Assembly (NCBI RefSeq): GCF_003030345.1 | Contig: NZ_CP028158.1 | Location: 3,410,001-3,474,000, forward strand | Length of the DNA: 64,000 nt | Origin: Plantactinospora sp. BC1 | GTDB lineage: Bacteria > Actinomycetota > Actinomycetes > Mycobacteriales > Micromonosporaceae | Direction: 5' to 3' | Part shown: piece after piece, positions 20,913-55,616 of the stretch | How positions within the stretch are numbered: the first letter of the stretch is position 1 | How the letters are laid out: each line of letters starts with the position of its first letter | Position numbers and translations under genes: made by a program | Notes under the pieces: model-generated | What the model saw: the letters and a program-made list of their open reading frames with translations, nothing else | Told to the model about the DNA's origin: nothing | Database searches by the model: none

Positions 20913-23900
20913 TCAACCGCCCGCCGCCGCCTCCGGCACCTGCGCCACCAGCGCGGCCAGGCCGTCGGCGTCGAGCAGGTCCGCCGGACGTACGGTCACG
21001 TTCTCCCGTACGTAGTGGAAGGCCGCCCGGACCCGGTCGACCGGCACACCCGCCAGTTCCGCCCAGGCCAGCCGGTACGCCGCCAACTGCACCGCGGCGG
21101 CCTCCGCCTCGACCCCGGTCGGCTGCCGCCCCGTCTTCCAGTCGACGACGTCGTACCGGCCGCCGGGGAGGGTGAAGACGGCGTCCATCCGGCCCCGGAC
21201 CAGCAGCCCGCCGATCGACGTGGCGAACGGCACCTCCACCTCCACCGGAGTGCGCTCGGCCCACTCGCTGGCCAGGAAGCGCTCCTGCAACTCGGCCAGC
21301 GCCTCGTCCGGGGCGGCGTCCGAGTCGGCCGCCCCGGGCAGCTCGTCGACGTCGAGCAGCCGGCTGATCCCGTACCGCTGCTCCAGCCAGGAGTGGAACG
21401 CGGTGCCGCGCCGGGCGTACGGCTCGGGGCGCCGGGGCATCGGCCGGCGCAACGCGCGGGCCAGCGCCGCCGGGTCCCGGCGCAGCGTCACGAGCTGCGA
21501 GACCGACAGGTGACGGGGGAGCGCCACCTCGACCGGTCCGGAGCGGTCCGCCAGCATGTCCCGCTCGGCGAGCAGCAGTTCGGCCTCGCGCCGCCAGGCC
21601 GCCGCGACGGCCGCCGCCTCCGGGTCGACCGGCGGCAACTCCCCACCACCGGCGCCGTCCGCCGGGTCCTCACCACCGGCGCCGTCCGCCCGGTCGGTGC
21701 CGTCCGCCCGTGCGGGGTCGCCGGTCGCCTGGGTCGGCTCCGCCTCGGGTGGTTCTTCCGACATCAGGCGGCGGACCAGGGCGGCGGCCTCGGCGAGTAC
21801 CGGCCGACGGGCACCGAGCGGGTCGGCCGGCCACTCGGCCCGGAGCACCACCTCGGTGGTCGGGTTGCTGGCGTCGGCCGCCGGCTCCGGCGCCCAGGCG
21901 TCGACCACGAAGCCGCTCTCGCCGGCCTCGGGCGTGGTCAGGCACCACTCGTACACCTCGGAGAGGAAGGTCGACGGGCCGCGTGGCCGTTTCGTCCCCT
22001 CGCCCCACCAGTAGCCGGAGCAGAGCAGCAGCCGGCGCGGCCGGGTGACCGCGACGTACGCCAGCCGGCGTTCCTCCCGCTCGTCGTGCGCCCGCCAGTC
22101 GTCGGTGAAGGTGGCCAGCGCCCGGGCCACCGCCTTCTGGTCGTCGGCGTCGTGCAGCGCCAGCTCGGGCAGCCCGTCCGCGTCGCCGCGCAGCGGGAAC
22201 GGCAGCACCCCGAGGCCGAGCAGATAGTGGTCGGAGCCCCGGGCCGTACCCGGCCAGACGCCCCGGCTCAGCCCGGCCACCGAGACCACATCCCACTCCA
22301 GGCCCTTGGCGGCGTGCGCGGTGAGGATCTGCACCGCACCCTCCACCACCTCGACCTCGCCCGGGGAGAGTCCCCGCTCCTCGTCCTCGGCGGCGGCGAG
22401 GAAGGCCAGGAAGGCGTGCAGCGGCGCACCGGCCGAGTCACCGGCGAACCGGGCCGCCACGTCGCCGAGCGCGTCCAGGTGCCCCCGGGCCAGTCCGGCG
22501 TCGCCGCCCCGGCCGTCGCTGCCGGCGCGGACCGCCACCTCGACGTCGAGGCCGATGGTCCGTTCGACGTCCGCGAGCAGGTCCGGCAGCGGCTGGTCCA
22601 GGCGGTGCCGGAGCAGGCCGAGTTCCTTGGCGTACGCCCGCAGCCGGGCGTAACCCTCCGCCGAGTACGCCTGCGCCGGCCCGAGGTCGGCCAGCGCCTC
22701 GACCAGGGTCGCCTCGTCGAGGCGGTCGGTGACGATCTCCGGCTCGTCGTCGTCGCCGTCGGAGCGGGGCAGTTCCCGGCGGGCCCCGGCGATCGCGGTG
22801 GCCCGGCGGTGCAGGGCGACCAGGTCACGCGGGCCGATCCGCCAGCGGGCTCCGGTCAGCAGCCGGAGCAGCGCGGCACCGTCGGTCGGGTCGGAGAGCA
22901 CCCGCAGGGTGCAGACCACGTCCCGCACCTCGGGGGTGTCCAGCAGCCCGCCGAGGCCGACCACCTCGACCGGCAGTCCCCGGTCCCGCAGCGCCGCCTC
23001 GATCGCCGGGATCTGGCTGCGCAGCCGGACCAGCACCGCCGTCGTCGGCCGGGCCACCACCGGAATCTGCTCCGGCAGCGCGTCCGGCATCCGGGCCGCG
23101 CCCCGCCAGGCGGCGAGGATGCTGTCGGCGATCCAGTCGGCCTCGTCGGCGTACGTGTCGAGCAGCGCGCAGTGCACCGTGCCGCCGGCGTACCCCCGGC
23201 CGGTGCGGCCGGGGATCTCCTCGTCGACCCGGAACGCGGCGGCCAGCTCGGCGACCTGCGCCCCGGCGGCCCGCAGCGGCGCGGCGAGCCCGTTGGCGAC
23301 GTCCAGGATCTGCGGCCGGTTCCGCCAGCTCGTGGTGAGGGTGCGCACCTGGGCCGGCGTGCCGTCCGGCTGGGCGAACTCGGTCGGGAACCGGTCCAGG
23401 GTGCCGGCGCTGGCACCCCGCCAGCCGTAGATCGACTGGCACGGGTCGCCGACGGCGGTGACCGGGTGCCCGCCGCCGTAGAGCGAACGGAGCAGCACCA
23501 CCTGGGCGTGACTGGTGTCCTGGTATTCGTCGAGCAGCACCACCCGGTAGCGCCCGCGCTCGATCGCGCCCACCTCCGGGTGGTCCCGGGCCACCCGCGC
23601 CGCCCGGGCAAGCTGGTCGCCGAAGTCCATCGCCTCGAAGTCGTCCTTGCGCTGGGCGTACGCCCGGACCAGCGGCAGCAGCCGCAGCCGGAGCTGCTGG
23701 ACGTGCAGCGCCTTGCGTACGTCGGCGTAGACCCGGCCGGGCCGGGACTGCACCTCGGCGAAGAACCGTCCCGTCCAGGCGGCCAGCTCGTCCGGGGTGA
23801 CCAGGTGCTCGGCCAGGTCTGCGGCGAGCGCCAGTACGGCGTCGGTGACGGTGCTCGGCTGCCGCTCCACCTCGGACATGTCGCCGTCGTGGTTGCGGAC

Positions 23901-24404
23901 GATCGAGTCGACGATCTGCCAGCGGGACGCCTCGGTGAGCAGCCGGGTCGACGGCTCGTACCCGCCACGCAGGCCGTGCTCGGTGACGATCCGGGCCGCG
24001 TACGAGTGGTACGTCGCCACCGTCGGCTCGCCGCCGAACGGGTCGTCGTCGCTGTTGCGGCTGTTGCGGCCGAGCCGACGGACGAGTTGACCGAGCCGGG
24101 TCCGGATCCGGGTGCCGAGTTCTCCGGCCGCCTTCCGGGTGAAGGTGAGGCCGAGGACGTGCCCGGGTTCGACGTACCCGTTGGCGACCAGCCAGACCAC
24201 CCGGGCGGCCATCGTCTCGGTCTTGCCGGAACCGGCCCCGGCGACCACCAGCAGCGGCTCGACCGGCGCCGAGATGATCGCGGCCTGCTCCAGGGTGGGT
24301 GCCGGCAGCCGGAGCAGCTTGGCCAGCTCGACCGGGGTGTAGCGCGGCCCGGCGTCGGCGACCCGCTGGGTCGGCGCCGGGCTGAACAGCGAGGGCTGGG
24401 TCAT
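20913..24404 (-). CDS. adnB: AdnB-like helicase-nuclease subunit
   Basis: 1163 residues. SF1A motor: Walker A GAGSGKT (56-62), [11 protein letters not shown], motif [14 protein letters not shown], motif [34 protein letters not shown], motif [14 protein letters not shown]-terminal RecB-type nuclease: GRMDAV (D1074) and VDWKTG (D1088, K1090) followed by QLAAYR. AdnAB is the mycobacterial double-strand-break-resecting motor-nuclease; AdnB carries the leading motor. Its ATG overlaps the adnA stop (ATGA at 24401-24404). An acidic, repetitive Asp/Gly/Ala insert ([20 protein letters not shown]) lies between motor and nuclease. Confidence 0.93.
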
Positions 24405-27400
24405 CGGGCGCCCCCGCCGCCGCGCTGGCCGGGCGGTTTCGGCGGGCTGTCCGGGCGGCGCCGGGTGGGCGGCTCGACGACCTGCCGGCCCTGCCCGGAG
24501 ATCGGGCAGCTGCTGCGTACCGGGCAGACCCGGCACTTCGAGTTGGCAACGGCGGAGAAGGTGGCCGCGGCCATCGTGTCGGCGGTACGCCGGACCATCG
24601 CCCGCGCCCAGCCACCCGCGTCCTCGGCCGCGCCGGCCGGCGGCTGGACCTGCTCCCGGGCGTCCTGGGTCGAGGTGCCGAGCTGCACCAGCGCCGCCCC
24701 GCCGGACTCCGACCCGGCGCCGAGGTCGGCGAACGCGCCCGCCTCCACCGCCGCCTGGTAGGCACCGAGCTGCGGATGCTCGGCCAGCTCCGACGCGGTC
24801 ACCGCCGTCGACTTGCCGGTCTTGAGGTCGATCACCACGAGCCGGCCCTCGGCGTCCACCTCCAGCCGGTCGACCCGGCCGGTCAGCTCGATCGGCCGCT
24901 TCGGGTCGTCGAGGCGTACCGCGAACTCGTGTTCGATGGCGAGCAGCCGGCGCGGGTTGCCGGCCAGCCAGCGCAGCAGCTTGTCGACCATCACCTCGGC
25001 GCGGGCCCGTTCGGTGCCGGCCATCCAGCGGGCGGCGAGTTCGATCACGTCGAACCGCGCCGTCACGTACTCCAGCAGTTTGCCCCGGTCGGCGCTGGCG
25101 TCCTCGGCGAGCATCGCGGCGGCGTGCACCAGGTTGCCGACCCCCTGCGCGGAGCTGGCCGGCGCCTTGCCGCCGTGCCGTTCCAGCAGCCAGCGCAGGC
25201 TGCACCGCAGCGCGCTCTCCATCCCGGACGGGGTGACCCGGACCGGTTCGCCCTCGTCGACCAGGGGCCGGTCGTCGGAGAGCGGCCGCAGCCCCCACCA
25301 GTCGTCGGGATGCGCCCCCGGCACCCCGGCGACGGCCAGCCGGGCCAGCTCCTCCGCCGCCGCGCGCCGCCGGGCCGGCGACGCCTCCGGGTCGGTGACG
25401 GCGGTACGCAGCTCGGCGACCAGCGCCGACAGCGTCAGCGCCCGGGGCGGCCGGGCGACGGGCAGCGTCGGTACGTCGTCGGCCATGCCGTCGGCCTCCT
25501 CGGCCGGCACCCCGTCCGGGTCCGGGGTCGCCCCGCCCCCGCCGCCGGGCCTACCGCCGCTCTCCGGTCCGCCCTGGCCGGTGCGGCCGTCGCCGTCGTC
25601 CGGGCGTTCGACGGTGGGGCCGAGTTCGTAGAGGAAGCGGCTCGGCTGCTCCTCGTGGTCGGCGACACCGACCGCCGCCGAGGCGACCGCGCTGACCAGC
25701 AGCCTGCGCCGGGCCCGGGTGGCGGCGACGTAGAAGAGCCGGCGTTCCTCGTCCAGCATCGCCGAACTCTGCCCGACCAGGGTGGCCGCGACACCGGCGC
25801 CCTCGCCCCGGCCGGCGAGCAGGTCGACCAGCCGCTCCGAGCCGAGCAGGCTGCCGCGCAGCCGCAGGTCCGGCCAAATCCCCTCCTGTACGCCGGCCAG
25901 CGCGACCAGGTCCCACTCCAGCCCCTTGGCCGCGTGCGCGGTGAGCAGGCGTACCGCCTCGCCCCGGTCGGCGCTCGGCGCGAGGGTGTCGGCCGGCAAC
26001 TGCTGCCCGAGCACGTGGTCGAGGAAGACCTCGGTACGCGCCCCTGGCAACCGGTCGACGAACCGGGCCGCCGCGTCGAAGAGTACGACGATCGCGTCCA
26101 GGTCCCGGTCCGCGGCGGCGGCCCGCCAGCGCAGCCCGCTGTCCTGCGCCCCGGCGGCGGTACGGGCCCGGGCCAGTGCGCCGGACCAGCGCTCGGCGAG
26201 CCCGCTGGCCCGCCACACCGCCCAGAGCACGTCCTCGGCGGTGGCGGCGGGCACCGCGGCCGCCTCCCTGGCGGCGGCCAGCAGGTTCGCGACCGCCTGG
26301 GCCGGTGCCGCCCAGCGGCGCTCGATGGTGAGCAGGTCGCGCGGGTCCCGCAACGCCTCCACCAGCAGGTCCCCGGAGGGGCGCCGGTCGCCGCCGGCCA
26401 GCGCCAGCGCGCGCAGCCCCTGCCGCAGCCGCCGCTCGGCCAGCGGGTCGGCGCCGCCCAGCGGCGAGTGCAGCAGCGTCACCGCCGCCTCCTCGTCGAG
26501 CCGGTCCGGTTCGAGCGCGCAGCGCAGCAGCAGCAGGAACGGCGCCACCGCCGGTTGCAGGTGCAGCGGCAGGTCCTCGGCGTGCACCACGGTCGGCACC
26601 CCGACGGTGTGCAGGGCGCGCTGCAACGGCGGCAGTTGCAGCGTGGTGGAGCGGAGCAGCACCGCCATCCGCGACCAGGGCACCCCGTCGAGCAGGTGTG
26701 CCGAGCGCAGCGCGTGCGCCAGATAGGCAGCCTCGCTGGTGCCGGAACGGAAGGTGCGGATCTCCACCGTCCCCGGCTCGGCGTCCGGCACCGGGCGCAG
26801 GTCGCGGTGGGCCACCGGCCCGCGCAGCCGCCGCGCCAGCCGCCGGGTCGCGTCCAGCAGCCCCGGCCCGGCCCGGTACGACGTGTGCAGCACCAGCGTC
26901 CGGGCCACCGCCCCGGAGACGGTACGGAACCGGTGCGCGAAGTGGTGCACGATCTCCGGGTCGGCGCCCCGGAAGGCGTACGTGGACGAGTCCGGGTCGG
27001 CGAACGCGACCAGTGACTTGCCACCGCCGGTCACCAGGTGCAGCAGGTCCACCTGGGCCGGGTCGGTGTCGGCCAGCTCGTCGACGTAGACGTGCGCGAG
27101 CCGGGCCCGCTCGGCGTCGAGCAGGTCGGGGTCGTCGGTGAGCAGCCCGGAGGCGGCCCGGACGAGTTCGGCGGGGTCGTAGGCGACCGAGCCCCGGGTG
27201 GTGACGTCGCGCAGGGCGAGCACGGCGACGTACTGCCGGAGGAAGCGGGCCGCCGCCGGCCAGTCGGCCCGGCCGAGCTTCTCGCCGAGCCGGGCCAGCT
27301 CCACCGGCCCGATCCCGCGCTCGGCGGCCCGCATCAGCAGGTCGCGGAGCTGTTCGGCGAAGGCCCGGGTACGCAGCGCCGGCCGCAACTCCGCCGGCCA

Positions 27401-27886
27401 GCCGACCGGGTCGTCGATCTCGTCCCCGTCACCGGGTTCGGTCTCCTCGACCCCGACCACGCCGAGCAGTTCCCGGATGATCAGATCCTGCTCGGGGCCG
27501 GTGAGCAGTCGGGGGGACGGCTCGCCGCGTTCCGCCGCCGACCTGCGCAGCAGCCCGAAGGCGTACGCCGGGAAGGTGCGGACCAGCGGCTCGTGCAGTA
27601 CCCGGTTGGTGGCCTCGGCGATCCGGGCCTCGATCCGGTGCCGCAGCGCGGTGGCGGAGCGGCGGCTGAACGCGAGCACCAGGATGCGTTCCGGGTCGAC
27701 ACCCTCGGCCACCCGGGCGACCACCGCCTCGACCAGGGTGCTGGTCTTGCCGGTACCCGGTCCACCCAGGACCAGCAGCGGGCCGTCGGTGTGTCCGACC
27801 ACCTCCCGCTGCACGGGGTCGTCGTGTCGCGCCGGTCCGGCCTCGGCCGGCCGACGGACCAGCCGGTACGCCTGCACGCCGCCCAT
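24401..27886 (-). CDS. adnA: AdnA-like helicase-nuclease subunit
   Basis: 1161 residues from the ATG at 27886; an upstream start at 27958 adds 24 unconserved residues. Walker A is GGPGTGKT (41-48). Motif II is degenerate (VYVDELADTDPAQ instead of DEYQDT), while [12 protein letters not shown] and LFYVAATRARR are intact. The C-terminal nuclease has GRVD (D1006) and VIDLKTG (D1020, K1022). It is framed by four cysteines (C895, C1118, C1121, C1127) in the C-xn-C-x2-C-x5-C pattern of iron-sulfur RecB-type nucleases such as AddB and Cas4. First gene of the adnAB pair. Confidence 0.92.
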   Translation of the reverse strand: MGGVQAYRLVRRPAEAGPARHDDPVQREVVGHTDGPLLVLGGPGTGKTSTLVEAVVARVAEGVDPERILVLAFSRRSATALRHRIEARIAEATNRVLHEPLVRTFPAYAFGLLRRSAAERGEPSPRLLTGPEQDLIIRELLGVVGVEETEPGDGDEIDDPVGWPAELRPALRTRAFAEQLRDLLMRAAERGIGPVELARLGEKLGRADWPAAARFLRQYVAVLALRDVTTRGSVAYDPAELVRAASGLLTDDPDLLDAERARLAHVYVDELADTDPAQVDLLHLVTGGGKSLVAFADPDSSTYAFRGADPEIVHHFAHRFRTVSGAVARTLVLHTSYRAGPGLLDATRRLARRLRGPVAHRDLRPVPDAEPGTVEIRTFRSGTSEAAYLAHALRSAHLLDGVPWSRMAVLLRSTTLQLPPLQRALHTVGVPTVVHAEDLPLHLQPAVAPFLLLLRCALEPDRLDEEAAVTLLHSPLGGADPLAERRLRQGLRALALAGGDRRPSGDLLVEALRDPRDLLTIERRWAAPAQAVANLLAAAREAAAVPAATAEDVLWAVWRASGLAERWSGALARARTAAGAQDSGLRWRAAAADRDLDAIVVLFDAAARFVDRLPGARTEVFLDHVLGQQLPADTLAPSADRGEAVRLLTAHAAKGLEWDLVALAGVQEGIWPDLRLRGSLLGSERLVDLLAGRGEGAGVAATLVGQSSAMLDEERRLFYVAATRARRRLLVSAVASAAVGVADHEEQPSRFLYELGPTVERPDDGDGRTGQGGPESGGRPGGGGGATPDPDGVPAEEADGMADDVPTLPVARPPRALTLSALVAELRTAVTDPEASPARRRAAAEELARLAVAGVPGAHPDDWWGLRPLSDDRPLVDEGEPVRVTPSGMESALRCSLRWLLERHGGKAPASSAQGVGNLVHAAAMLAEDASADRGKLLEYVTARFDVIELAARWMAGTERARAEVMVDKLLRWLAGNPRRLLAIEHEFAVRLDDPKRPIELTGRVDRLEVDAEGRLVVIDLKTGKSTAVTASELAEHPQLGAYQAAVEAGAFADLGAGSESGGAALVQLGTSTQDAREQVQPPAGAAEDAGGWARAMVRRTADTMAAATFSAVANSKCRVCPVRSSCPISGQGRQVVEPPTRRRPDSPPKPPGQRGGGGAR

Positions 27887-28006
27887 CACACCACGCCGCC
27901 CCGACGAGGCACCCTCAGGTACGCCCCGCGCCACGCTCCCGTCGCACTCCCGGTGCACCCACCGGCTCCGACGGGTCGCCTGAGAGAGTGTTGGGTAACT
28001 GGATGA

Positions 28007-45623: not shown

Positions 45624-46363
45624 CCGGTAATGTCGGAATAACCCGGCTGTGGCCCGACCCCACGCCGGCTGCCCTGGACGAGTCGGCGCTGATCGCGCTC
45701 TATCCCCGCCCCGACCGGCCCCACCTCCGGATGAACTTCGTCGCCAGCGTCGACGGTGCGGTCGAGCTGGACGGCCACTCCGCCGGGCTCTCCTCCGCGC
45801 CGGACAAGCGGGTCTTCGGGCTGCTCCGGATGGTCTGCGACGTGCTGCTGGTCGGCGCGGGCACGCTGCGGCACGAGGCGTACCGGGCGCTCCGGCTCGA
45901 CGAGCGGCGCCGGGCCTGGCGCCGGGAGCACGGGCTGGCCGAGTACCCGACCCTGGTCGTGGTCTCCCGGGCGCTGAACCTCGACCCGGAGTCGGCGGCC
46001 TTCGCGGACGCCCCGGTCCGGCCGGTGGTGCTCACCGCCGAGCGGGCCGAGGCGCCGGCCGGGCTCGACGGCGTCGCCGAGCTGCTGCGCCGCGGCGAGG
46101 AGCGGGTCGACCTGGCCGCCGGCCTCGCCGAGCTGCACCGCCGTGGGCACGGCCAGGTGCTCTGCGAGGGCGGGCCGCACCTCTTCGGCTCGCTGACCGC
46201 CGCCGGCCTGGTCGACGAGGTCTGCCTGACGGTGGCGCCGATGCTGACCGGTCCGGGCGCCGGGCGGATCACCGCCGGGCCGACCACCACGCCGCAGGGG
46301 ATGTCGCTGCGGCACGTCCTCGCCGCCGGGGACGAGCTGCTGCTCCGGTACGTCCGCGGCTGA
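45620..46363 (+). CDS. RibD C-terminal-like pyrimidine reductase
   Basis: 247 residues from the ATG at 45620. RibD_C/dihydrofolate-reductase-like fold: MNFVASVDGAVELDG, VLLVGAGTLRHEAYRALRL, LCEGGPHLFGSLTAAGLVDE, TVAPMLTGPGAGRITAG. Homologues reduce 5-amino-6-ribosylamino-uracil phosphate or related ribosides with NADPH in riboflavin or deazaflavin routes. No deaminase domain and no rib operon are nearby, so the substrate is uncertain. Confidence 0.85.
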   Translation: MTGNVGITRLWPDPTPAALDESALIALYPRPDRPHLRMNFVASVDGAVELDGHSAGLSSAPDKRVFGLLRMVCDVLLVGAGTLRHEAYRALRLDERRRAWRREHGLAEYPTLVVVSRALNLDPESAAFADAPVRPVVLTAERAEAPAGLDGVAELLRRGEERVDLAAGLAELHRRGHGQVLCEGGPHLFGSLTAAGLVDEVCLTVAPMLTGPGAGRITAGPTTTPQGMSLRHVLAAGDELLLRYVRG

Positions 46364-46707
46364 GCCGGCCCGGCGGTGCCCCGGAGGCAGTGGTACGCCG
46401 ACTCCGGCCGGCGCCGCGCCCGACCGGTGCCGGCGTGTTGCCCCGGCCGACGGGTGGATTGAGGGTCATCATGGCGCAGGAGGCTAGTCGGGCACCGGGA
46501 GCGGACCGCCAAGATCTGGTTAATGCGTCGCAAAGCAGCCGTGTACGACCGAGCGCGGGACGAACCCGACGACCACCCGGCCGCACCGCCGCGCCGCGTT
46601 GGCACGGTGTCGTACTAGTGAGGCAGGATGCGACTCGTGTGTCTTGACCAGATTCTCACCCTGACCGACGCGACACCGACCGGGGCGACACCCAGCGGAG
46701 TGGCACG
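46364..46707. other. Region upstream of herA
   Basis: 344 bp. Two short frames (46471-46647 and 46523-46618) have weak or no ribosome sites and no recognisable product. TTGACC at 46644-46649 could be a -35 but no clear -10 follows at proper spacing. The area near 46500-46640 is AT-richer than its surroundings. Confidence 0.5.
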
Positions 46708-48465
46708 GTGACCGACAGCCCACCCGAGGCTCCGGGAGCGGAGGTCGGCCGGGTGCTGGGCACCGCCGACGCCACCCCGTTGCAGTTCTGGACGGCCGTC
46801 ACCCCGGGCAGCTACCTCCAGCTCGACGACGTGGTGGTGACCCGCCGCGAGCTGCCGGACCGGGAGCCGGTCACCATCGCCGGGGTGGTCACCCAGGTCC
46901 GGGCCCGGCACGAGGGGGCGCAGTTCGACTCCGACGTCTTCGCCATCGCCGACGGCACCCTGCCGGCGATGGTGCAGGAGGCGGCCGAGATCACCACCAC
47001 CCGGGTCGACCCGGAGTTCTACGTCCCGCCCTCCCCCGGCGCGGTCGTCTACCGGGCCGAGGGCGAGGCCCGGTCGGCGGCGCTGCACTTCGACCGGATG
47101 GAGCGCCGGGTGCCGATGGGGATCGGCCGGGACGGCGTGCCGGTCTTCCTCAACGCCGACTTCCTGGACGGCAGCCGGGGCGCGCACGTCTCGATCTCCG
47201 GCATCTCCGGGGTGGCCACCAAGACCAGCTTCGCCACCTTCCTGCTCTACTCGGTCTTCCGCTCCGGGGTGCTCGGCGGCGACGCGGTGAACGCCAAGGC
47301 ACTGATCTTCAACGTCAAGGGCGAGGACCTGCTCTTCCTCGACCACCCGAACAGCCGGCTGGACGCGGCCACCACCGAGACGTACGCGAAGCTGGGGCTG
47401 GACGCCGGAGCCTTCCCGGACGTCCGGGTCTACGCCCCGCCCCGGGCCGGCGACTCCTCCGGCACCCCCGACGTGAGCAGCCGGCTCTCCGGGGTCGACA
47501 GCTTCTACTGGACGCTGACCGAGTTCTGCGCCGACCGTCTCCTGCCCTACGTCTTCGCCGACGCCGACGACGAGCGCCAGCAATACACCATGGTGGTGCA
47601 CTCGGTCGCCGCCCACCTGGCCAGGTATGCCCAGCCCGCCGACGGCGGGGTCAGCGTCGACGGGGTACGGATCAACTCCTACCCCGACCTGGTCGACCAC
47701 ATCGTCGAGCAGCTCACCGACGACGAGACCCGCTCGGAGTGGGCCGGCAGCGCGGTCAACATGGGCACCGTCAACGCCTTCGCCCGGCGGCTGATCGGCA
47801 GCAAGAAGGATCTGGCCCGGCTGATCCGGGGCGACCTCGCCACCCGCCGTCCGCACAGCGTGAACACCGCCGAGAGCGCCCAGGTGACCGTGGTCGACCT
47901 GCACAACCTGCCGGACCGGGCGCAGCGGTTCGTGGTCGGGGTGACCCTGAAGACCGAGTTCGAGCGCAAGGAGAAGGCCGGCACCGCCAAGCCGCTGCTC
48001 TTCGTCGTCCTCGACGAGCTGAACAAGTACGCCCCCCGGGAGGGCTCCTCGCCGATCAAGGAGGTGCTGCTCGACATCGCCGAGCGGGGCCGCTCGCTCG
48101 GGGTGATCCTGATCGGGGCGCAGCAGACCGCCAGCGAGGTGGAGCGGCGCATCGTCACCAACTCGGCGATCCGGGTGGTCGGCCGGCTCGACCCGGCCGA
48201 GGCGTCCCGCCCGGAGTACGGCTTCCTCCCCGCCGCGCAGCGGCAGCGGGCGCTGCTGGCCAAGCCGGGCACGATGTTCGTCAACCAGCCGGACATCCCG
48301 GTGCCGCTCTGCCTGGACTTCCCCTTCCCGGCCTGGGCGACCCGGGTCTCCGAGGCCGGTGCCGCGCCGACCGGGACGCTCCGGTCGATCACCCAGGCCG
48401 CCGACCCGTTCGCGGTGGTCGGCTCCCGGGCCGGAACCCTCACCGACGACGACATCCCCTTCTAG
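46708..48465 (+). CDS. herA: HerA-like DNA translocase ATPase
   Basis: 585 residues, GTG start with GGAG 9 nt upstream. N-terminal HAS-barrel-like region (about 15-150), then a HerA/FtsK-type ATPase. The P-loop is unusual: GISGVATKTS (165-174), with Thr replacing the Gly before the catalytic Lys172 and the spacing shifted by one. Walker B is LLFVVLDELNKY (D436, E437), followed by LLDIAERGRSLGVILIGAQQ (polar sensor Q472/Q473) and an Arg-finger candidate ERR (480-481). In archaea HerA is a hexameric pump that works with NurA and Mre11-Rad50 to resect DNA ends. Here sbcD, sbcC and a nurA-like gene follow directly. Confidence 0.9.
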   Translation: MTDSPPEAPGAEVGRVLGTADATPLQFWTAVTPGSYLQLDDVVVTRRELPDREPVTIAGVVTQVRARHEGAQFDSDVFAIADGTLPAMVQEAAEITTTRVDPEFYVPPSPGAVVYRAEGEARSAALHFDRMERRVPMGIGRDGVPVFLNADFLDGSRGAHVSISGISGVATKTSFATFLLYSVFRSGVLGGDAVNAKALIFNVKGEDLLFLDHPNSRLDAATTETYAKLGLDAGAFPDVRVYAPPRAGDSSGTPDVSSRLSGVDSFYWTLTEFCADRLLPYVFADADDERQQYTMVVHSVAAHLARYAQPADGGVSVDGVRINSYPDLVDHIVEQLTDDETRSEWAGSAVNMGTVNAFARRLIGSKKDLARLIRGDLATRRPHSVNTAESAQVTVVDLHNLPDRAQRFVVGVTLKTEFERKEKAGTAKPLLFVVLDELNKYAPREGSSPIKEVLLDIAERGRSLGVILIGAQQTASEVERRIVTNSAIRVVGRLDPAEASRPEYGFLPAAQRQRALLAKPGTMFVNQPDIPVPLCLDFPFPAWATRVSEAGAAPTGTLRSITQAADPFAVVGSRAGTLTDDDIPF

Positions 48466-48481
48466 CAGTGGGTGGGCGACC

Positions 48482-49627
48482 GTGAAGATCCTGCACACCT
48501 CCGACTGGCACGTCGGCAAGGTCCTCAAGGGACAGTCCCGGGTCGGCGAACACCGCGACGCCCTCGCCCAGGTGGTCGAGGTCGCCCAGGCCGAGTCCCC
48601 CGACCTGGTGATCGTCGCCGGTGACCTCTACGACACCGCCGCGCCGACCCCCGAGTCGACCCGGCTGGTCACCCGGGCGCTCTCCGCGTTGCGCCGCACC
48701 GGCGCCCAGGTCGTCGCGATCGGCGGCAACCACGACAACGGCCCGGCCCTGGACGCGCTCCGGCCGTGGGCCGAGGCCGCCGGGGTGGCGCTGCGGGGCA
48801 GCGTCCGGGACAACCCGGCCGAGCACGTCGTCGACGGGACCACCGCCGACGGCGAGGCGTGGCGGCTGGTCGCGCTTCCGTTCCTCTCCCAGCGGTACGC
48901 GGTCCGCGCCGTCGAGATGTACGAGCTGACCGCCGCCGAGGCGGTGCAGACCTATGCCGACCACGTCGGGCGGGTGCTCGGCCGGCTGACCGAGAGCTTC
49001 GACTCCCCCGACCGGGTGCACCTGGTCACCGGGCACCTGACCGTGGTCGGCGCCCGCACCGGCGGCGGCGAGCGGGAGGCGCACACCGTGCTCAACTACG
49101 CCGTACCGGCCTCGGTCTTCCCGAGCAACGCGCACTACGTGGCGCTCGGTCACCTGCACCGGGCACAGCAGGTGCTCGGCCCCTGCCACATCCGCTACAG
49201 CGGCAGCCCGCTGCCGATCGACTTCGGCGAGGAGGAGAACCGCCCCTCGGTCAGCATCGTCGAGGTGAGCACCCGGACCGCCGCCCGGGTCCGGGAGGTG
49301 CCGATCACGGCGGCGGCGCCGCTGCGCACCGTACGCGGCACCCTGGCCGAACTCGCCAAGGTCGACGACGGCACGTCCTGGCTGCGGGTCTACGTCCGGG
49401 AGGCGCCGAGAGCCGGGCTGCGCGAGGAGGTGCAGGAGCTGCTCCCCCGGGCCCTGGAGGTGCGGATCGACCCCGAGATGTTGCCGGCCGCCGGTGCGGG
49501 CCGGGCCGCCCAGCGGGCCGGGCGCTCCCCCCGGGAACTCTTCGCCGACTATCTGACCAGCCGGGGCCAGGCCGACGACGGGGTGCGCGAACTGTTCGAC
49601 GAACTCTACGAGGAGGCGACCAAATAG
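48482..49627 (+). CDS. sbcD: SbcD/Mre11 nuclease subunit
   Basis: 381 residues, GTG start. Metallophosphoesterase motifs in order: SDWH (7-10), GDLYD, GGNHDN, TGHLT and ALGHLHRAQ. Mn-dependent exo/endonuclease acting with SbcC on DNA ends and hairpins. 16 bp after herA; its TAG shares one base with the sbcC GTG. Confidence 0.95.
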   Translation: MKILHTSDWHVGKVLKGQSRVGEHRDALAQVVEVAQAESPDLVIVAGDLYDTAAPTPESTRLVTRALSALRRTGAQVVAIGGNHDNGPALDALRPWAEAAGVALRGSVRDNPAEHVVDGTTADGEAWRLVALPFLSQRYAVRAVEMYELTAAEAVQTYADHVGRVLGRLTESFDSPDRVHLVTGHLTVVGARTGGGEREAHTVLNYAVPASVFPSNAHYVALGHLHRAQQVLGPCHIRYSGSPLPIDFGEEENRPSVSIVEVSTRTAARVREVPITAAAPLRTVRGTLAELAKVDDGTSWLRVYVREAPRAGLREEVQELLPRALEVRIDPEMLPAAGAGRAAQRAGRSPRELFADYLTSRGQADDGVRELFDELYEEATK

Positions 49628-52110
49628 TGCGTCCGCTCCGGCTCGACCTGGCCGGCTTCACCGCCTTCCGGGACGCGACCACCGTCGACTTCACCGACGC
49701 GGACTTCTTCGCCCTGGTCGGGCCGACCGGTTCGGGCAAGTCCAGCGTGCTCGACGCGATCTGCTTCGCCCTCTACGGCACGGTGCCGCGCTGGGGCGGC
49801 GCCCGGGGCATCGCCAACGCGCTGGCCCCGTCGGCGGCCGAGGCCCGGGTCCGGCTGGTCTTCGAGTCCGCCGGCGCACGCTACGTGGCGACCCGGGTGG
49901 TCCGGCGGGACAGCCGGGGCAACGTCAAGACCGGCAACGCCGGGCTGCAACTGATGCCGCCCGGCTTCGACGTGACGAAGCTGGACACCGGGCTCAGCCC
50001 GGAGGACCTCGGCGAGGTGGTCGCCGGTACCCCGGCCGAGATGGACGACGCGGTGCTGGAGGCGGTCGGGCTGCCGTACGAGCAGTTCACCAGTTGCGTA
50101 CTGCTGCCGCAGGGGCAGTTCGCCGACTTCCTGCACGCCAAGCCGGCGACCCGGCAGCAGATCCTGGTCAACCTGCTCGGCCTCGGCGTCTACGAGGAGG
50201 TGCAGAAGCGGGCGACCGCGCGGGCGGCCCGGGCCGACGCCGCGCTGGAGGCCGTCGACCGGATGCTGGACGGGCTCACCGGGATCGACGACGAGACGCT
50301 GGCGGTCGCGGCCGGGCGGGTGGACGCGATGCGGCAACTGGCCGACGGGGTCGACGCGGCCGTACCCGAGCTGCGGGCCGCCCGTACCGCCGCCACCGAG
50401 GCGGAGCGCGGGCTCGCCGCCCTCGACGCCGAACTCGCCGAGCTGGCCCGGGTCCGGCCGCCCCGGGACCTCGCGGTGGTCGCCGACGCGGTCGCGGCCG
50501 CCCGGGAGGCGGCGACCGAGGCGTCGGCGGCGGTGACCGTGGCCGAGGAACGCGAGGAGAAGCTCCGGGGCGAGCTGGCCGGTGCCGGCGACCCGGCGGC
50601 GCTGCGGCTGCTGCAACAGGCGCACACCGAACGCAGGCAGGTGGCCGGCGAGGCGGCGACGCTGGCCGGCGCGCTGGAGGCGGCCGGTGCCGACCACGAC
50701 GCGGCGGTGGCCGCCCTCGACGCGGCCCGGGCCGCCGCCGCGCGGGCCGGCGCGGAGTTGGAGGCGGCCAGGACCGCCTACCAGGAGGCGCAGACCGCCG
50801 ACCGGGCGGCGGCGCTCCGGGCCCACCTGCACGCCGGGGCGCCCTGCCCGGTCTGCACCCAGCCGGTGACGGAGGTGCCGCCGCTGCCGGAGGGCTCGGC
50901 GGTGGCCGCCGCGAAGCAGGCCGGTGAGGCCGCCCGGGCCGCCGCCGACGCCGCCGACCGGCTGGTCGCCGAGCGGGACCGGGCCGCCCGGGAGCTGGAA
51001 CGCACCCTCGACCAGGCCCGGGTCCGGCACGAGCAGCTGACCGCCCGGCTCGCCGACCTCGACGCCCGGCTCGCCGACTCCCCCGGCCCGGCCGCACTGC
51101 GCGAACGGCTCGACCTGCTCGCCGGGCTCCGGCGGGACCTGGAGGCGGCCGGCGGGGCGGTACGGGCGGCCCGGGAGACGGCCCGGCGGACCCGGGCCGG
51201 CGTGCAGGCGGCCGAGGAGCGGCTGCGGGGCGCCTGGCACGCCTTCGACACGGTGCGGGACGGGGTGGCCCGGTTCGGTCCACCGGCCGCCGACCGGGCG
51301 GACGTGACCGCCGCCTGGGCCGGGCTGGCCGACTGGGCGGCCCGGGCCGGCGAGGAGCGGCGGGCGAGCCGGGCCGGCGCCGCCTCGGCGGTGACCGAGG
51401 CGCACGGCACCGTCGACGCGGTCGCGGAACGGATCGCCGCGCTCTTCACCGCCGTCGGGCTCGACCGGCCGGCCGACGACGCCGACCCGGTCCGGCTGGC
51501 GGTGGTCGCCGTCGAGCGGGCCGAGGCCGAGCACCGCCGGCTGGTCGAGCGCCGGGAGCAGGCCCGGGAGCTGACCGAGCGGCGGACCGGGCACGAGCGG
51601 GAGTCCCGGGTCGCCAAGGCCCTCGCTGGGCACCTGCGGGCCAACAACTTCGAGCGCTGGCTGCTGGCCGAGGCGCTCGACATGCTGGTCGACGGCGCCT
51701 CCCGGATCCTGCGCGAACTCACCGACGGGCAGTACGACCTGGCGCACGACAAGGGCGAGTTCTTCGTGGTCGACCACCACGACGCCGGGCTGCGCCGGGC
51801 GGTCCGGACCCTGTCGGGCGGGGAGACCTTCCAGGCCTCGCTGGCGCTGGCGCTGGCCCTCTCCGAGCAGCTCGCCGGCCTCTCCACCACCACCGCCAGC
51901 CTGGAGTCGATCGTGCTCGACGAGGGCTTCGGCACGCTCGACGCGGCGACCCTGGAGACCGTCGCCGCCACCCTGGAGAACCTCGCCGCCCGGGGCGACC
52001 GGATGGTCGGGGTGGTCACCCACGTACCGGCGCTGGCGGAACGGATCCCGGTCCGGTTCGAGGTACGCAAGGACGCCCGCAGCTCCCGGGTGGAACGGAC
52101 CGGCCGGTGA
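49627..52110 (+). CDS. sbcC: SbcC/Rad50 ATPase
   Basis: 827 residues, GTG start overlapping the sbcD stop. Walker A GPTGSGKS (32-39); long Ala/Glu/Arg-rich coiled coils on both sides of a zinc-hook CPVC (C407, C410); ABC signature LSGGE (729-733); Walker B SIVLDEGFGTLD. It is the shorter actinobacterial form (E. coli SbcC is over 1000 residues) with a shorter coil. Works with SbcD on blocked or broken DNA ends. Confidence 0.95.
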   Translation: MRPLRLDLAGFTAFRDATTVDFTDADFFALVGPTGSGKSSVLDAICFALYGTVPRWGGARGIANALAPSAAEARVRLVFESAGARYVATRVVRRDSRGNVKTGNAGLQLMPPGFDVTKLDTGLSPEDLGEVVAGTPAEMDDAVLEAVGLPYEQFTSCVLLPQGQFADFLHAKPATRQQILVNLLGLGVYEEVQKRATARAARADAALEAVDRMLDGLTGIDDETLAVAAGRVDAMRQLADGVDAAVPELRAARTAATEAERGLAALDAELAELARVRPPRDLAVVADAVAAAREAATEASAAVTVAEEREEKLRGELAGAGDPAALRLLQQAHTERRQVAGEAATLAGALEAAGADHDAAVAALDAARAAAARAGAELEAARTAYQEAQTADRAAALRAHLHAGAPCPVCTQPVTEVPPLPEGSAVAAAKQAGEAARAAADAADRLVAERDRAARELERTLDQARVRHEQLTARLADLDARLADSPGPAALRERLDLLAGLRRDLEAAGGAVRAARETARRTRAGVQAAEERLRGAWHAFDTVRDGVARFGPPAADRADVTAAWAGLADWAARAGEERRASRAGAASAVTEAHGTVDAVAERIAALFTAVGLDRPADDADPVRLAVVAVERAEAEHRRLVERREQARELTERRTGHERESRVAKALAGHLRANNFERWLLAEALDMLVDGASRILRELTDGQYDLAHDKGEFFVVDHHDAGLRRAVRTLSGGETFQASLALALALSEQLAGLSTTTASLESIVLDEGFGTLDAATLETVAATLENLAARGDRMVGVVTHVPALAERIPVRFEVRKDARSSRVERTGR

Positions 52111-53078
52111 GCACCCGGCTCTTCGTCGACGCCTGGGACCCGGCCTACGGTGCCTCGTTCGAGGCGGCCGGCGGCCCGGCGGCACCGAGCAGCGCCCAGG
52201 TGCAGACCGACGTCGAGCTGCCCGCCGACGAGTGGCGCCCGCTCGCCGCCCCGGACGGCATCGAGCCGCCGGACGTGGTGCTGCTGGTCGACGGGGTACG
52301 CCGGATCGACGCCAGCGTCTGGACCGAGGAGCCGGACGGCACCTCCTTCCCCGGGCTGGCCGCCTCGTACGCCGCCGGAGTGGTCCGGTGCGACCTGCGC
52401 CGGGGCGCCGCCGAACTGGCCGGTGCCGAGGTGGAGCGGGGACTATTCACCGCCAGCCCGTCGGCGCAGGACGTGGTCGCCGGGCAGATCCGGTACGCCG
52501 TACACCGGCTCAGCGGGACCGGCGAGTTGAGCAAGCTGCCGGCGGCGGTCCAGGGGCCGCTGACCGCGCTGGAGGTGAAGGTCTCCGGCGCGGTCCGGGA
52601 CGACGGCGACCTGCTGGTGGTGGACGGCCCGCTGCGCAGCCGGCGGCAACTGCCGCGCACCCTCGGCTACATCAAGACGCAGCACAGCCAATATCTGGAG
52701 GCCCGGCACACGGCGCTGGTCACCGGGCTGGCCGCCCGGGAACGCTCCCCGGTCTTCCGGCTCGGTACGGCCTGGGGCGGCTACTCCTGGTATCTGCGGC
52801 TGCCCGGCTCCGGGCGCGGCCCGTGGGCCGGGATCGTCCGGGTCGAGTGCTCGGCCGAGCTGGCCGAGCAGCAGGCGATCGAGTTGGCGAACCTCTCCCT
52901 GGTCACGCTGCCGAAGTTCGCCTCCACCCCCTACAAGGACCCCCGGGCCCCGCAGAACCTGATCCCGATCGCCGGGCTGGAACGCCGGCTGCGGGCCCGG
53001 CTCGGCGACGGCCGGCTGCTGCACCGCGCCCTGACCCTGGCCACCACCCGGGCCGCCCCGCCGGCCTACACCGGTTGA
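52107..53078 (+). CDS. nurA: NurA-domain nuclease
   Basis: 323 residues, GTG start overlapping the sbcC stop (GTGA). The NurA pattern is visible: N-terminal acidic strand FVDAWD (D8), DVVLLVDGVRRID (D62), the late LLVVDGPLRSRRQLPRTLGY (D173) and IKTQHSQYL (K190). In NurA these acidic residues bind Mn and the Lys/His region is conserved. NurA is a 5'-3' nuclease that docks on the HerA hexamer. The assignment rests on motifs and operon context; overall similarity to archaeal NurA could not be measured. Confidence 0.75.
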   Translation: MSTRLFVDAWDPAYGASFEAAGGPAAPSSAQVQTDVELPADEWRPLAAPDGIEPPDVVLLVDGVRRIDASVWTEEPDGTSFPGLAASYAAGVVRCDLRRGAAELAGAEVERGLFTASPSAQDVVAGQIRYAVHRLSGTGELSKLPAAVQGPLTALEVKVSGAVRDDGDLLVVDGPLRSRRQLPRTLGYIKTQHSQYLEARHTALVTGLAARERSPVFRLGTAWGGYSWYLRLPGSGRGPWAGIVRVECSAELAEQQAIELANLSLVTLPKFASTPYKDPRAPQNLIPIAGLERRLRARLGDGRLLHRALTLATTRAAPPAYTG

Positions 53079-53151
53079 CGCCAGGTGTAGCAACGGCTCG
53101 TTCCCGCCGGCCGCCGCCCGGGTCGGGAGGCCCGGCGGCGATACTTCACCG

Positions 53152-54009
53152 GTGGGGCGGAAACGGCGGGCCGACGCGCTCGCGGTGAAGGTGGCGAGCG
53201 GTCTGGCGGAGCTGCGCCCGGACCCGGACCGGCCGGGCTCCTACACCCTGCTGGTCGACGGGGCGCCGCAGTCGCACGTCGACCTCACCGACCCGACACA
53301 CCTGGAATTCGAGTACGTCCGCCGGATCGCCATCGTGCTCGACCTCGTCGCGCCGGCCGGTCAGCCGCTCCGGGTGCTGCACCTGGGCGGTGGGGCGATG
53401 ACGCTGCCCCGCTATCTCTCGACCACCCGACCCGGCTCGACGCAGCGGGTCGTCGAGGTCGACGCGGCCCTGGTCGACCTGGTCCGGGAGAAACTGCCCT
53501 GGCCGACCGACCCCCGGCTGCGGGTCCGGGTCGGCGACGCCCGGGAGGTGCTCGGCACGATCCGGGACGGCGACTACGACGTGGTGGTGGCCGACGTCTT
53601 CGCCGGCGCCCGCACCCCGGCACATCTGGCCTCGGTGGAGTTCGCGGCCGAGGCGGCCCGGGTGTTGCGCCCCGGCGGCGTACACGTGGTCAACGTCGCG
53701 GACGGCCCGCCGCTGCGGTACGCCCGCGCCCAGGTCGCCACCCTCCGGGCCGTACTCCCCGAGGTCTGCCTGGTCGCCGATTCGGCGGTGCTGCGCGGCC
53801 GCCGGTACGGCAACCTGGTGCTGGCCGCCAGCCGGGCCGAACTGCCGGTGCCGGAGCTGGTCCGGCGTACCGCCGGAGACTGGTTCCCCGGCCGGGTGCT
53901 GGCCGGTGCCGACCTGGACCGCTTCGCCGACGGTGCCCGGGTGGTCGTCGACAGCGCCGCCCGACCCTCCGCACCGCCCCCGCCGGGGAGCTTCGACATC
54001 GCCCGCTAG
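53152..54009 (+). CDS. Spermidine-synthase-like methyltransferase-fold protein
   Basis: 285 residues, GTG start. SAM/aminopropyl-donor fold: VLHLGGGAMTLPRYL, VVEVDAALVDLVREKL, DYDVVVADVFAGARTP, AARVLRPGGVHVVNVAD. The AdoMet-dependent synthases of this group often lack a true spermidine synthase role. GATACT (53140-53145) lies 6 nt before the GTG, so it may be transcribed leaderless, separately from the nurA operon. Confidence 0.85.
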   Translation: MGRKRRADALAVKVASGLAELRPDPDRPGSYTLLVDGAPQSHVDLTDPTHLEFEYVRRIAIVLDLVAPAGQPLRVLHLGGGAMTLPRYLSTTRPGSTQRVVEVDAALVDLVREKLPWPTDPRLRVRVGDAREVLGTIRDGDYDVVVADVFAGARTPAHLASVEFAAEAARVLRPGGVHVVNVADGPPLRYARAQVATLRAVLPEVCLVADSAVLRGRRYGNLVLAASRAELPVPELVRRTAGDWFPGRVLAGADLDRFADGARVVVDSAARPSAPPPPGSFDIAR

Positions 54010-54306
54010 CCGGACACATCGGACGTCCCGGTTGCCGAGGTGCAGCTCCGGCACAACTTCTCCGAGCCGCGTTGATCCGGCCCGGCCCGGGATCCGTACT
54101 TCTCGGCGGCGGGATCGACCGGACCCCAGGCGGGGGGCCGGCTCACGCGCCTTCGACGCGGAGGTATGGGTGGGATGCAGGCGGTAGCCGGCGGATGGTA
54201 TGGCGACACGGTCATGCCGGGGCGAATGTGCGCTGCCTCGCAACGCCGGTCAATTCGGTACCGGAAAAGTCTCGACGCGCGGCCGGCCGGACGGAATGAT
54301 GGGCCG
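54010..54306. other. Region upstream of the ECF sigma gene
   Basis: 297 bp without recognised gene; no clear promoter motif. An in-frame ATG at 54175 with GGAGGT upstream could extend the sigma protein by 44 residues. Confidence 0.4.
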
Positions 54307-54867
54307 GTGACACCGCGACCGGCTGCCGGCCGCCACAATTCGACCCCCGCCGAGACGAGGCACTCCGACGAGCTCGTTCGCGTGCTCTACGAGGAACATG
54401 CCAAACCTCTGCTGATGTTCGTCCTGCGGCTGACCGGCGGCGACCGCCAGCGCGCCGAGGACGTGGTGCAGGAGACGCTGTTACGCGCCTGGCGCAACGC
54501 ACACCGGCTCGGCACCCACGGCCAGTCGTCGTTGCGTCCCTGGCTCGTCACCGTCGCCCGGCGGATCGTGATCGACGACCACCGCAGCGAGCAGGCCCGA
54601 CCCGCCGAGACGTACGACCGCGATCTGGAGGGCTTCTCCGAGTCCGACGACACGGACCGGGTGCTGCGGATGATGACCATCACCGACGCCCTGCGCACGC
54701 TGAGCCAGCCGCACCGGGAGGTGCTGGTGGCGACGTACTTCCGGGGGCGCACGGTGCCGGAGGCCGCCGAGGAGTTGGGGCTGCCGCTCGGCACCGCGAA
54801 GTCCCGGGTCTACTACGCGCTCCGGGCTCTCCGGGCGGCGCTGGTGGAGCGGGGGGTGACCGAGTGA
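54307..54867 (+). CDS. ECF sigma factor (SigL/SigK-like)
   Basis: 186 residues from GTG 54307, chosen because homology starts shortly after; an ATG at 54175 with a good GGAGGT site would give 230 residues. Region 2 (LLMFVLRLTGGDRQRAEDVV, QETLLRAW) and region 4 (PHREVLVATYFRGRTVPEAA, LGTAKSRVYYALRALR) are intact. Codon 59 (54481-54483) is TTA, a very rare codon in such DNA. Its stop overlaps the start of the anti-sigma gene (GTGA). Confidence 0.92.
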   Translation: MTPRPAAGRHNSTPAETRHSDELVRVLYEEHAKPLLMFVLRLTGGDRQRAEDVVQETLLRAWRNAHRLGTHGQSSLRPWLVTVARRIVIDDHRSEQARPAETYDRDLEGFSESDDTDRVLRMMTITDALRTLSQPHREVLVATYFRGRTVPEAAEELGLPLGTAKSRVYYALRALRAALVERGVTE

Positions 54868-55616
54868 GCGCCGAGATCCACTGGGACGTCGCGTCGTACG
54901 CGCTCGGCGTCCTGGACGAGCGCGACACCCTGCGCTTCGAGGAGCACCTGGCGAGCTGCCCGCAGTGCGGGCTGGAGCTGGAGTCGCTGCTGCCGGTGGT
55001 GGACATGCTGGGCGAGGTCGACGGCCGGGACCTGATGGCGGCCGACCGCGTCGAGTCCGACGGCGCACTCTTCGAGCGGGTCGTTTCGGCGGTCGGCGCG
55101 GACCGGCGGCGGGCCCGCAGCCGGCGGCTCTACAGCCTCGCGGCGGGTGTGGTGCTGGTGGCGATGCTGACCGGCCTGGCGCTCTTCGCCGGGACCCGGA
55201 TCGCCGACCCGGGCACGACGACCGCGCAGCCGCCGGTCGGCACGGTCACCGCCAGCCCGGGGGCCACCGGCCGGCCGGCACCGACCGGCGACCGGTTCAC
55301 CGCCACCGACCCGGAGAGCGGGGTGCGCATGGAGCTGATCCTCGGCTCGACGCCCTGGGGCACCCGGGTCTCCTACGCGCTGAGCGGGTTGTCCGGCCCG
55401 AAGGTGTGCCGGCTGGTGGCGATCCACAAGAACGGCAGGACCGAGGCGCTCTCCAGCTGGAGGGTGCCACCCGGCGGCTACGGCACGAAGACCCAGCCCA
55501 ACCCGCTGATGCTGGAGACCGCCACCTCCAGCGGCCTGGACGACATCGTCGGGTTCCAGGTGCAGGTGATCGACGACGACGGGTCGGTGGACCCGCTGGT
55601 GACCGTGCCGGCCTGA
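54864..55616 (+). CDS. Zinc anti-sigma factor, membrane-bound
   Basis: 250 residues. The N-terminal ZAS motif H28-x3-C32-x2-C35 (HLASCPQC) holds the sigma factor; one transmembrane helix (SLAAGVVLVAMLTGLALFAG, about 91-110) follows; the extracytoplasmic part ends in an RskA/anti-sigma-K-like domain (SRLSGPKVCRLVAIH region). Co-translated with the sigma factor. Signal and release mechanism are not visible. Confidence 0.92.
   Translation: MSAEIHWDVASYALGVLDERDTLRFEEHLASCPQCGLELESLLPVVDMLGEVDGRDLMAADRVESDGALFERVVSAVGADRRRARSRRLYSLAAGVVLVAMLTGLALFAGTRIADPGTTTAQPPVGTVTASPGATGRPAPTGDRFTATDPESGVRMELILGSTPWGTRVSYALSGLSGPKVCRLVAIHKNGRTEALSSWRVPPGGYGTKTQPNPLMLETATSSGLDDIVGFQVQVIDDDGSVDPLVTVPA

Follow-up and report, generated by a model that had tools for sequence, protein, structure and literature searches.

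What is a herA-sbcD-sbcC-nurA block, a gene set best known from archaea, doing in an actinobacterium, and what would switch it on? The question is raised by positions 3410001-3474000 of the 8.33-Mb chromosome of Plantactinospora sp. BC1 (contig NZ_CP028158.1), a stretch of 64,000 nucleotides that we refer to as the window and whose own numbering we use throughout. At 46708-53078 the four genes lie head to tail on the plus strand. The first, herA (46708-48465, 585 aa, start codon GTG), is followed after a gap of 16 bases by sbcD (48482-49627, 381 aa), which overlaps sbcC (49627-52110, 827 aa) by a single base (TAGTG); sbcC in turn overlaps nurA (52107-53078, 323 aa) by four bases at 52107-52110 (GTGA). 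Gene calls and homology bear out what the original prediction put forward on the identity of the four genes and their operon-like layout, and also its gap and first overlap; the second overlap had been given as three bases. In our view the four genes probably make up a bacterial operon for DNA-end processing, driven by a PafBC-type promoter as part of a LexA-independent damage response and acting in parallel with AdnAB. The new observations are a promoter-like element with PafBC spacing before the block and the co-occurrence of that element with PafC; they would link a widespread four-gene bacterial operon to the PafBC damage response.

By sequence comparison, the HerA/FtsK-type translocase ATPase encoded by the first gene is of the Deinococcus bacterial type. 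It matches Deinococcus radiodurans HerA (7f6d_B) with 501 bits in phmmer over stretches 12-309 and 317-550, the N-terminal region included, and reaches only 15.3 bits with the archaeal-type HerA model NF040819, the cut-off of which is 970. The P-loop GISGVATKTS is identical in the two proteins, and in the Walker B motif LDELNKYAPRE the string DELNKYAPRE is identical as well; both motifs are almost invariant among the aligned relatives. The ATPase residues K172, T173, D207, D436, and E437 correspond to K175, T176, D220, D487, and E488 of the D. radiodurans protein, and the translocation residues R444 and R501 correspond to R495 and R552 (the D. radiodurans positions were counted by hand on the HerA alignment, and the window positions were then checked). 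The P-loop is apparently one residue longer than what we take to be the canonical Walker A motif. We considered and rejected the idea of a degenerate, dead P-loop because D. radiodurans HerA has the same loop, in which K175 and T176 are described as touching nucleotide and Mg, with D487 and E488 lying within Walker B (PMC9960219).

Judged by their profile matches, SbcD and SbcC are also of the bacterial type. SbcD, a Mre11-type nuclease, scores above the TIGR00619 cut-off (178.4 against 77.65 bits) and matches the solved SbcD 4lty_C at E 6e-37; with the archaeal Mre11 model Mre11_Pyroc it scores 46.8 against a cut-off of 600. SbcC, a Rad50-type ATPase, passes the Pfam models AAA_23 and SbcC_Walker_B and falls under the TIGR00618 cut-off (250.1 against 478.5 bits), and both Walker motifs (A and B), LSGGE, and a CPVC hook can be read in its translation.

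The original prediction had made the identity of the last gene depend on a profile match to NurA. The Pfam profile by itself does not provide it: PF09376 gives 12.7 bits for this open reading frame (ORF) against a cut-off of 21, and no match at E 0.001 over the whole genome. We therefore replaced that search, as the sole test of identity, with sequence and fold comparison with solved NurA proteins, and these identify the gene product as a bacterial-type NurA with predicted nuclease activity. Among PDB sequences, phmmer matches D. radiodurans NurA (7f6d_H) at E 3e-18. An AlphaFold model built from a 49-row alignment has a mean pLDDT of 92.6, and its best Foldseek match is D. radiodurans NurA (7f6d_G, E 7e-19, TM 0.70/0.68), followed by Thermotoga TM1739 (1zup, E 9e-16). 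W10 of the window protein corresponds to D. radiodurans W8 by its N-terminal position, which lies beyond the printed alignment, and D62, K190, and R280 align with D53, K201, and R309, mutation of which is reported to abolish nuclease activity (PMC9960219). All four residues are invariant in 49/49 aligned NurA rows.

The four genes travel together. A taxonomic survey of the block, which the original prediction had proposed, finds it recurring across Actinomycetota and Chloroflexota-labelled records. The scan of named genomes covered the best 80 of at least 581 relatives, ranked by actinobacterial HerA, and the labels among the matches listed include Acidimicrobiia, Thermoleophilia, Pseudonocardia, Frankia, Kineosporia, Streptosporangium, Micromonospora, Chloroflexi, and Gemmatimonadetes, many of them on metagenome-assembled genomes whose labels may be wrong. 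For synteny we used loci chosen for the presence of HerA or NurA in which HerA is flanked by at least 1 kb on its left and 7 kb on its right. All four genes lie on one strand in 81 of the 85 fetched well-flanked loci, and none has an inverted gene; because of this, the linkage is not explained by chance. With three duplicates removed, 78 of 82 distinct HerA loci carry the four genes on one strand, 41 in the order nurA-herA-sbcD-sbcC, 36 in the order herA-sbcD-sbcC-nurA, and one in an odd order (L079, whose sbcD looks broken). In about 9 of the 78, L079 included, herA and sbcD are separated by an insert of roughly 1 kb or more. Four loci depart from the full block: L026 and L028, where sbcD-sbcC-nurA lies about 10-14 kb further along on the same strand in the same order, and the Pseudonocardia pair L129 and L158. 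Within the window's own family, Micromonosporaceae, L075 has sbcD-sbcC-nurA with no herA in the fetched 3.2 kb upstream, and L082 ends at a contig end.

Across a sample of 149 genomes of the phylum, HerA was found in 49 (45 at E 5e-18 or better) and NurA in 43 (42 at E 1e-10 or better), and all 42 genomes with a strong NurA match are among the 45 with strong HerA. In the three strong-HerA genomes left over, the contig stops before the expected nurA position (G109), NurA adjoins HerA by local profile (G169, L062), or the HerA match is close to the contig start (G180). NurA is present in 25/25 sampled genomes of the window's family, its own genome counted, and in 2/16 genomes of the same order beyond that family; one family of the order (f8) has neither HerA nor NurA in any of its four sampled genomes.

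Several observations lie at the edges of this distribution. One genome (G185) has an ordinary block (L043) and also a second, highly divergent nurA-herA-sbcD-sbcC set (L057). A divergent lineage in the phylum sample, family f30 (L058-L065), keeps nurA-herA, with sbcD in 8/8 loci followed by an sbcC match, and is without a strong PafC match or the promoter element. A plasmid of the cyanobacterium Nostoc sp. UHCC 0870 carries an adjoining nurA-herA pair of the same type (L215, 8866-11243). Distant viral relatives of HerA occur in IMG/VR contigs (L166-L168), one of which (L167) has a weak NurA-like ORF upstream, and in Marinitoga camini virus 1 (KP836355.1).

What might drive transcription of the block is suggested by the DNA before herA. 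At 46608-46629 on the plus strand, TGTCGTACTAGTGAGGCAGGAT is the sole conserved island upstream of herA in the family alignment, the surrounding DNA being poorly alignable, and it ends 78 nt before the herA GTG. We read it as a putative PafBC-type element of the form TGTCGTAC-N8-CAGGAT, comprising a -26 element and a -10. PafBC is described as a LexA-independent damage activator that contacts the -26 element (PMC11804915, PMC8223512), and the motif given for Mycobacterium tuberculosis is TGTCGG/AG/AC-N10-TA-N3-T (PMC8151990). The spacing in the window is identical; in the -26 and -10 letters its family shows small departures, the form there being TGTCG(G/T)AC with a -10 that is often CANGAT. 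The window has the family-conserved variant, and the strict TA form is absent at that place. The spacing and the PafBC idea were chosen after viewing the alignment, and a scan of spacings serves as control for that choice: with k=11, GTCR-Nk-TANNNT turns up in 54 of 119 distinct upstream regions, and none of the other spacings tried (k from 3 to 21) exceeds 4; the stricter TGTCR form turns up in 35 of 119 with k=11, never in more than 1 with another spacing, and in 1 when k=11 is read on the opposite strand. In 300 Markov simulations GTCR-N11-TANNNT appeared 0.8 times on average, with a maximum of 5. Over the whole window the loose element gives 2 matches against 1.86 expected, which is no signal alone, and the evidence is comparative. 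The element is present in 14 of 22 loci of the window's family, in 0/7 Chloroflexota-labelled loci, and in 0/2 Gemmatimonadota-labelled ones. Two Kineosporia loci have TTGTCGGTG-N8-TAGTCT upstream of the block, which we take to be the full RecA-NDp form. No sigma-70 consensus promoter was found across 46200-53400. LexA control of the block was considered and set aside, as the single SOS-like pattern match in the window lies at 24922 and not before herA.

The element also keeps company with its presumptive activator. For this comparison the element was defined as GTCR-N11-TANNNT or TGTCR-N11-CANNAT lying within 180 bases, and 38 loci of the phylum sample had usable upstream DNA, the second block of one genome (L057) being counted apart. 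Of the 28 loci that have PafC at E <1e-20, 21 carry the element; of the 10 that do not, none carries it (Fisher p 4e-5, uncorrected for kinship). In the window's own genome pafA is followed downstream by pafB and pafC (L211), PafC being recognized by HTH_PafC (148.8 bits) and PafB by its WYL and WCX domains and its position between pafA and pafC.

In the 8.33 Mb of this genome, TGTCGKAC-N8-YANNNT has 26 sites, compared with 5 for the reversed pattern. Eight of the 26 precede DNA-repair genes: recA, the Lhr helicase, a PD-(D/E)XK exonuclease, an AlkZ-like glycosylase, a uracil-DNA glycosylase (ung), a DEDD/UvrC-like exonuclease, SSB, and the herA block. The ORFs following 10 of the 26 sites were profile-scanned; the remaining sites were assessed by inspection, fell within genes, or were followed by no clear ORF. 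A crude coding test flagged four of the seven other repair sites as inside longer open frames; at three of these the protein's profile match starts after the site, and the flag at PD-(D/E)XK comes from an overlapping opposite-strand frame. In M. tuberculosis, the published data have ssb and AdnAB upregulated by PafBC and a recB-like exonuclease raised by mitomycin in a recA mutant (PMC8151990), and recA is listed as a PafBC target (PMC8223512). Our literature search on HerA, NurA, and PafBC found no report placing HerA-NurA-SbcCD in the PafBC regulon. We infer from these sequence patterns that PafBC controls the block in Plantactinospora sp. BC1, and the shared promoter signature suggests that DNA damage induces this widespread bacterial set. 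In passing, the recA gene of this genome (3593668-3595545, minus strand, outside the window; L212, L213, L223) contains an in-frame intein-like insert with a LAGLIDADG endonuclease domain, its best NCBIfam model being 'intein-containing recombinase RecA', and near 2525522 an ORF that by eye resembles a different HerA/DUF87-type ATPase starts 119 bases after a TGTCGGTG-N8-TACCGT site (L184).

Does the block stand in for AdnAB? On the minus strand of the window, 20913-27958 encodes a helicase-nuclease pair (24401-27958 and 20913-24404) with PF12705 nuclease domains and UvrD-type helicase matches, which we presume to be AdnAB. No PafBC-type element was found before this pair in the window. AdnB-like matches of at least 200 bits occur in 24/45 HerA-positive genomes and in 22/104 others, by a hand tally that leaves kinship uncorrected and excludes four weak HerA matches from the 45. 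We rejected the possibility of substitution, which would give complementary distributions: AdnB-like matches are commoner in HerA-bearing genomes. Because of this, and because AdnAB-like genes lie in the same window, the block looks like an addition to AdnAB and not a replacement. It is quite possible, if slightly less likely than not, that many Actinomycetota possess a second dedicated resection machine beside AdnAB, an SbcCD-HerA-NurA complex under PafBC control that takes the ends AdnAB cannot process. Such a role would give bacterial HerA-NurA a DNA-damage function; the authors of the bacterial HerA-NurA structure describe its biological role as uncertain and the pair as confined to a few bacteria (PMC9960219), and a review states that NurA/HerA occurs in Actinobacteria among other phyla (PMC8708640).

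The original prediction called the set archaeal-style. This holds for gene content, since the same four functions adjoin on one strand in the archaeal herA-mre11-rad50-nurA operon of Sulfolobus and Pyrococcus, but not for the subunits: HerA and NurA are of the Deinococcus type, SbcCD is bacterial, and the archaeal HerA and Mre11 models fall far under cut-off. For Sulfolobus islandicus we take the gene order to be herA, mre11, rad50, nurA; the published account places the four within one operon (PMC4351679). With D. radiodurans NurA-HerA (PDB 7f6d; PMC9960219) the window proteins share the HerA type, the P-loop, the NurA fold, and the catalytic residues, although nurA-herA is described there as not clustered with the Mre11/Rad50 homologs (PMC8708640). 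An earlier bacterial case of HerA (named HepA) followed by SbcD and SbcC is that of Oceanithermus profundus, where sbcD-sbcC lies downstream of nurA-hepA; it belongs to the Thermales, and in that account, where Thermus nurA likewise precedes hepA, a promoter or damage-regulon link does not appear (PMC5448004). In a midpoint-rooted HerA tree of 127 rows with no archaeal outgroup, the rows with nurA last group in a single clade, except for the contig-end rows L112 and L131, which start-based labelling had mislabelled. That clade sits among rows with nurA-herA-sbcD-sbcC, and Micromonospora and Longispora rows nest among those of the window's family. Because the window's order is one clade amid another bacterial order, and because of the Thermus and Oceanithermus arrangements, the resemblance to the archaeal arrangement probably arose secondarily, inside bacteria.

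How would such a set act? SbcCD opens blocked ends, and in the block SbcC-SbcD would recognize and open blocked or broken ends. A HerA ring on the duplex would then pump DNA into a NurA dimer, which would degrade mainly the 5' strand and leave a 3' tail for RecA, the operon being transcribed from its PafBC-type promoter alongside recA, ssb, and lhr. The D. radiodurans NurA-HerA complex is reported to degrade the 5' strand in vitro during HerA-driven translocation and to leave a 3' tail (PMC9960219). A joint damage-induced end-processing machine is the best reading because the set is conserved and its promoter is of a repair type; the physical coupling of SbcCD to HerA-NurA as one complex, which the original prediction had supposed, is plausible, and in vivo the set would process DNA ends.

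A number of observations weigh against this account. The element's -10 in the window starts with C instead of T, the element is missing from 8 of 22 family loci, and at two of the 14 that have it (L074 and L077) it runs into, or almost into, the predicted start of the gene. Seven of the 28 PafC-positive block loci are without it, and kinship confounds the co-occurrence with PafC, as a single family supplies 8 of the 10 negatives. At the other seven repair genes the start codon follows 0-15 bases after the site, compared with 78 before herA. The mycobacterial form TGTCRGTG-N8-YANNNT has 32 sites in the genome against 4 for the reversed pattern, with 18 of the 30 fetched lying within likely coding sequence and no recognized repair gene among the 9 following ORFs read by eye. 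The published ionic HerA interface of D. radiodurans is only partly conserved: of D78, E80, and D81, the first alone is kept. Deletion of nurA-herA in D. radiodurans is reported to have raised tolerance to UV and mitomycin (PMC9960219), and a 2026 study of Thermococcus kodakarensis, as presented in its account, doubts a resection role for archaeal HerA-NurA and suggests an antiviral one (PMC12977600).

The antiviral suggestion leads to another account of the block, as a phage-defense module in which HerA-NurA and SbcCD degrade invading DNA, as is thought for HerA-Sir2, HerA-DUF4297, and TdpAB. HerA is indeed described as paired with nucleases in several defense systems (PMC12977600), the NurA model has weak fold likeness to a TdpAB complex chain (8wfd_G, Foldseek E 1.5e-5), and PADLOC models respond to the block (mad8 to HerA at 35.5 bits, mad3 to SbcC at 93.7 bits, and several HerA models weakly). 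A linear plasmid of Streptomyces sp. BB1-1-1 (NZ_CP134205.1; L214, 2415-10002) carries the whole herA-sbcD-sbcC-nurA block, with a restriction endonuclease and an ImmA/IrrE gene close by; the nurA of this block bears the annotation "hypothetical". Against this stand the 25/25 family genomes with NurA, the promoter element common to recA, ssb, and lhr, and eight window neighbors, among which a Pfam scan alone found no defense gene (four had no match at all). Of the two roles that the original prediction had left open, we regard defense as quite improbable and favor repair, because of the PafBC-type element and because the uniform presence of NurA in the family is unlike that of a patchy defense system.

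Within a repair function, the two pairs might be co-regulated only and act apart, SbcCD removing hairpins or protein adducts and HerA-NurA degrading ends. Linkage by itself is no proof of contact, the herA-sbcD inserts noted above would fit separate action, and nurA-herA is described as lying away from sbcD-sbcC in Deinococcus (PMC8708640) and Thermus (PMC5448004). Weighing on the other side are a Mre11-HerA interaction reported in Sulfolobus acidocaldarius (PMC2288612), the stimulation of NurA/HerA by archaeal Mre11-Rad50 (PMC8708640), and the retention of the set across many lineages, and we hold separate action to be a real but somewhat doubtful option. The upstream element, for its part, might serve another activator or a sigma factor with the same spacing and not PafBC, as the departure of the family's -26 and -10 from the mycobacterial motif would allow. 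We think this unlikely: the spacing is that of PafBC sites, a similar element precedes recA in the same genome, and among the 38 loci compared the element is present only with PafC.

Downstream of the block and on the same strand, 54166-55613 encodes a sigma-70 family factor followed by a putative zinc-finger (anti-sigma-like) protein.

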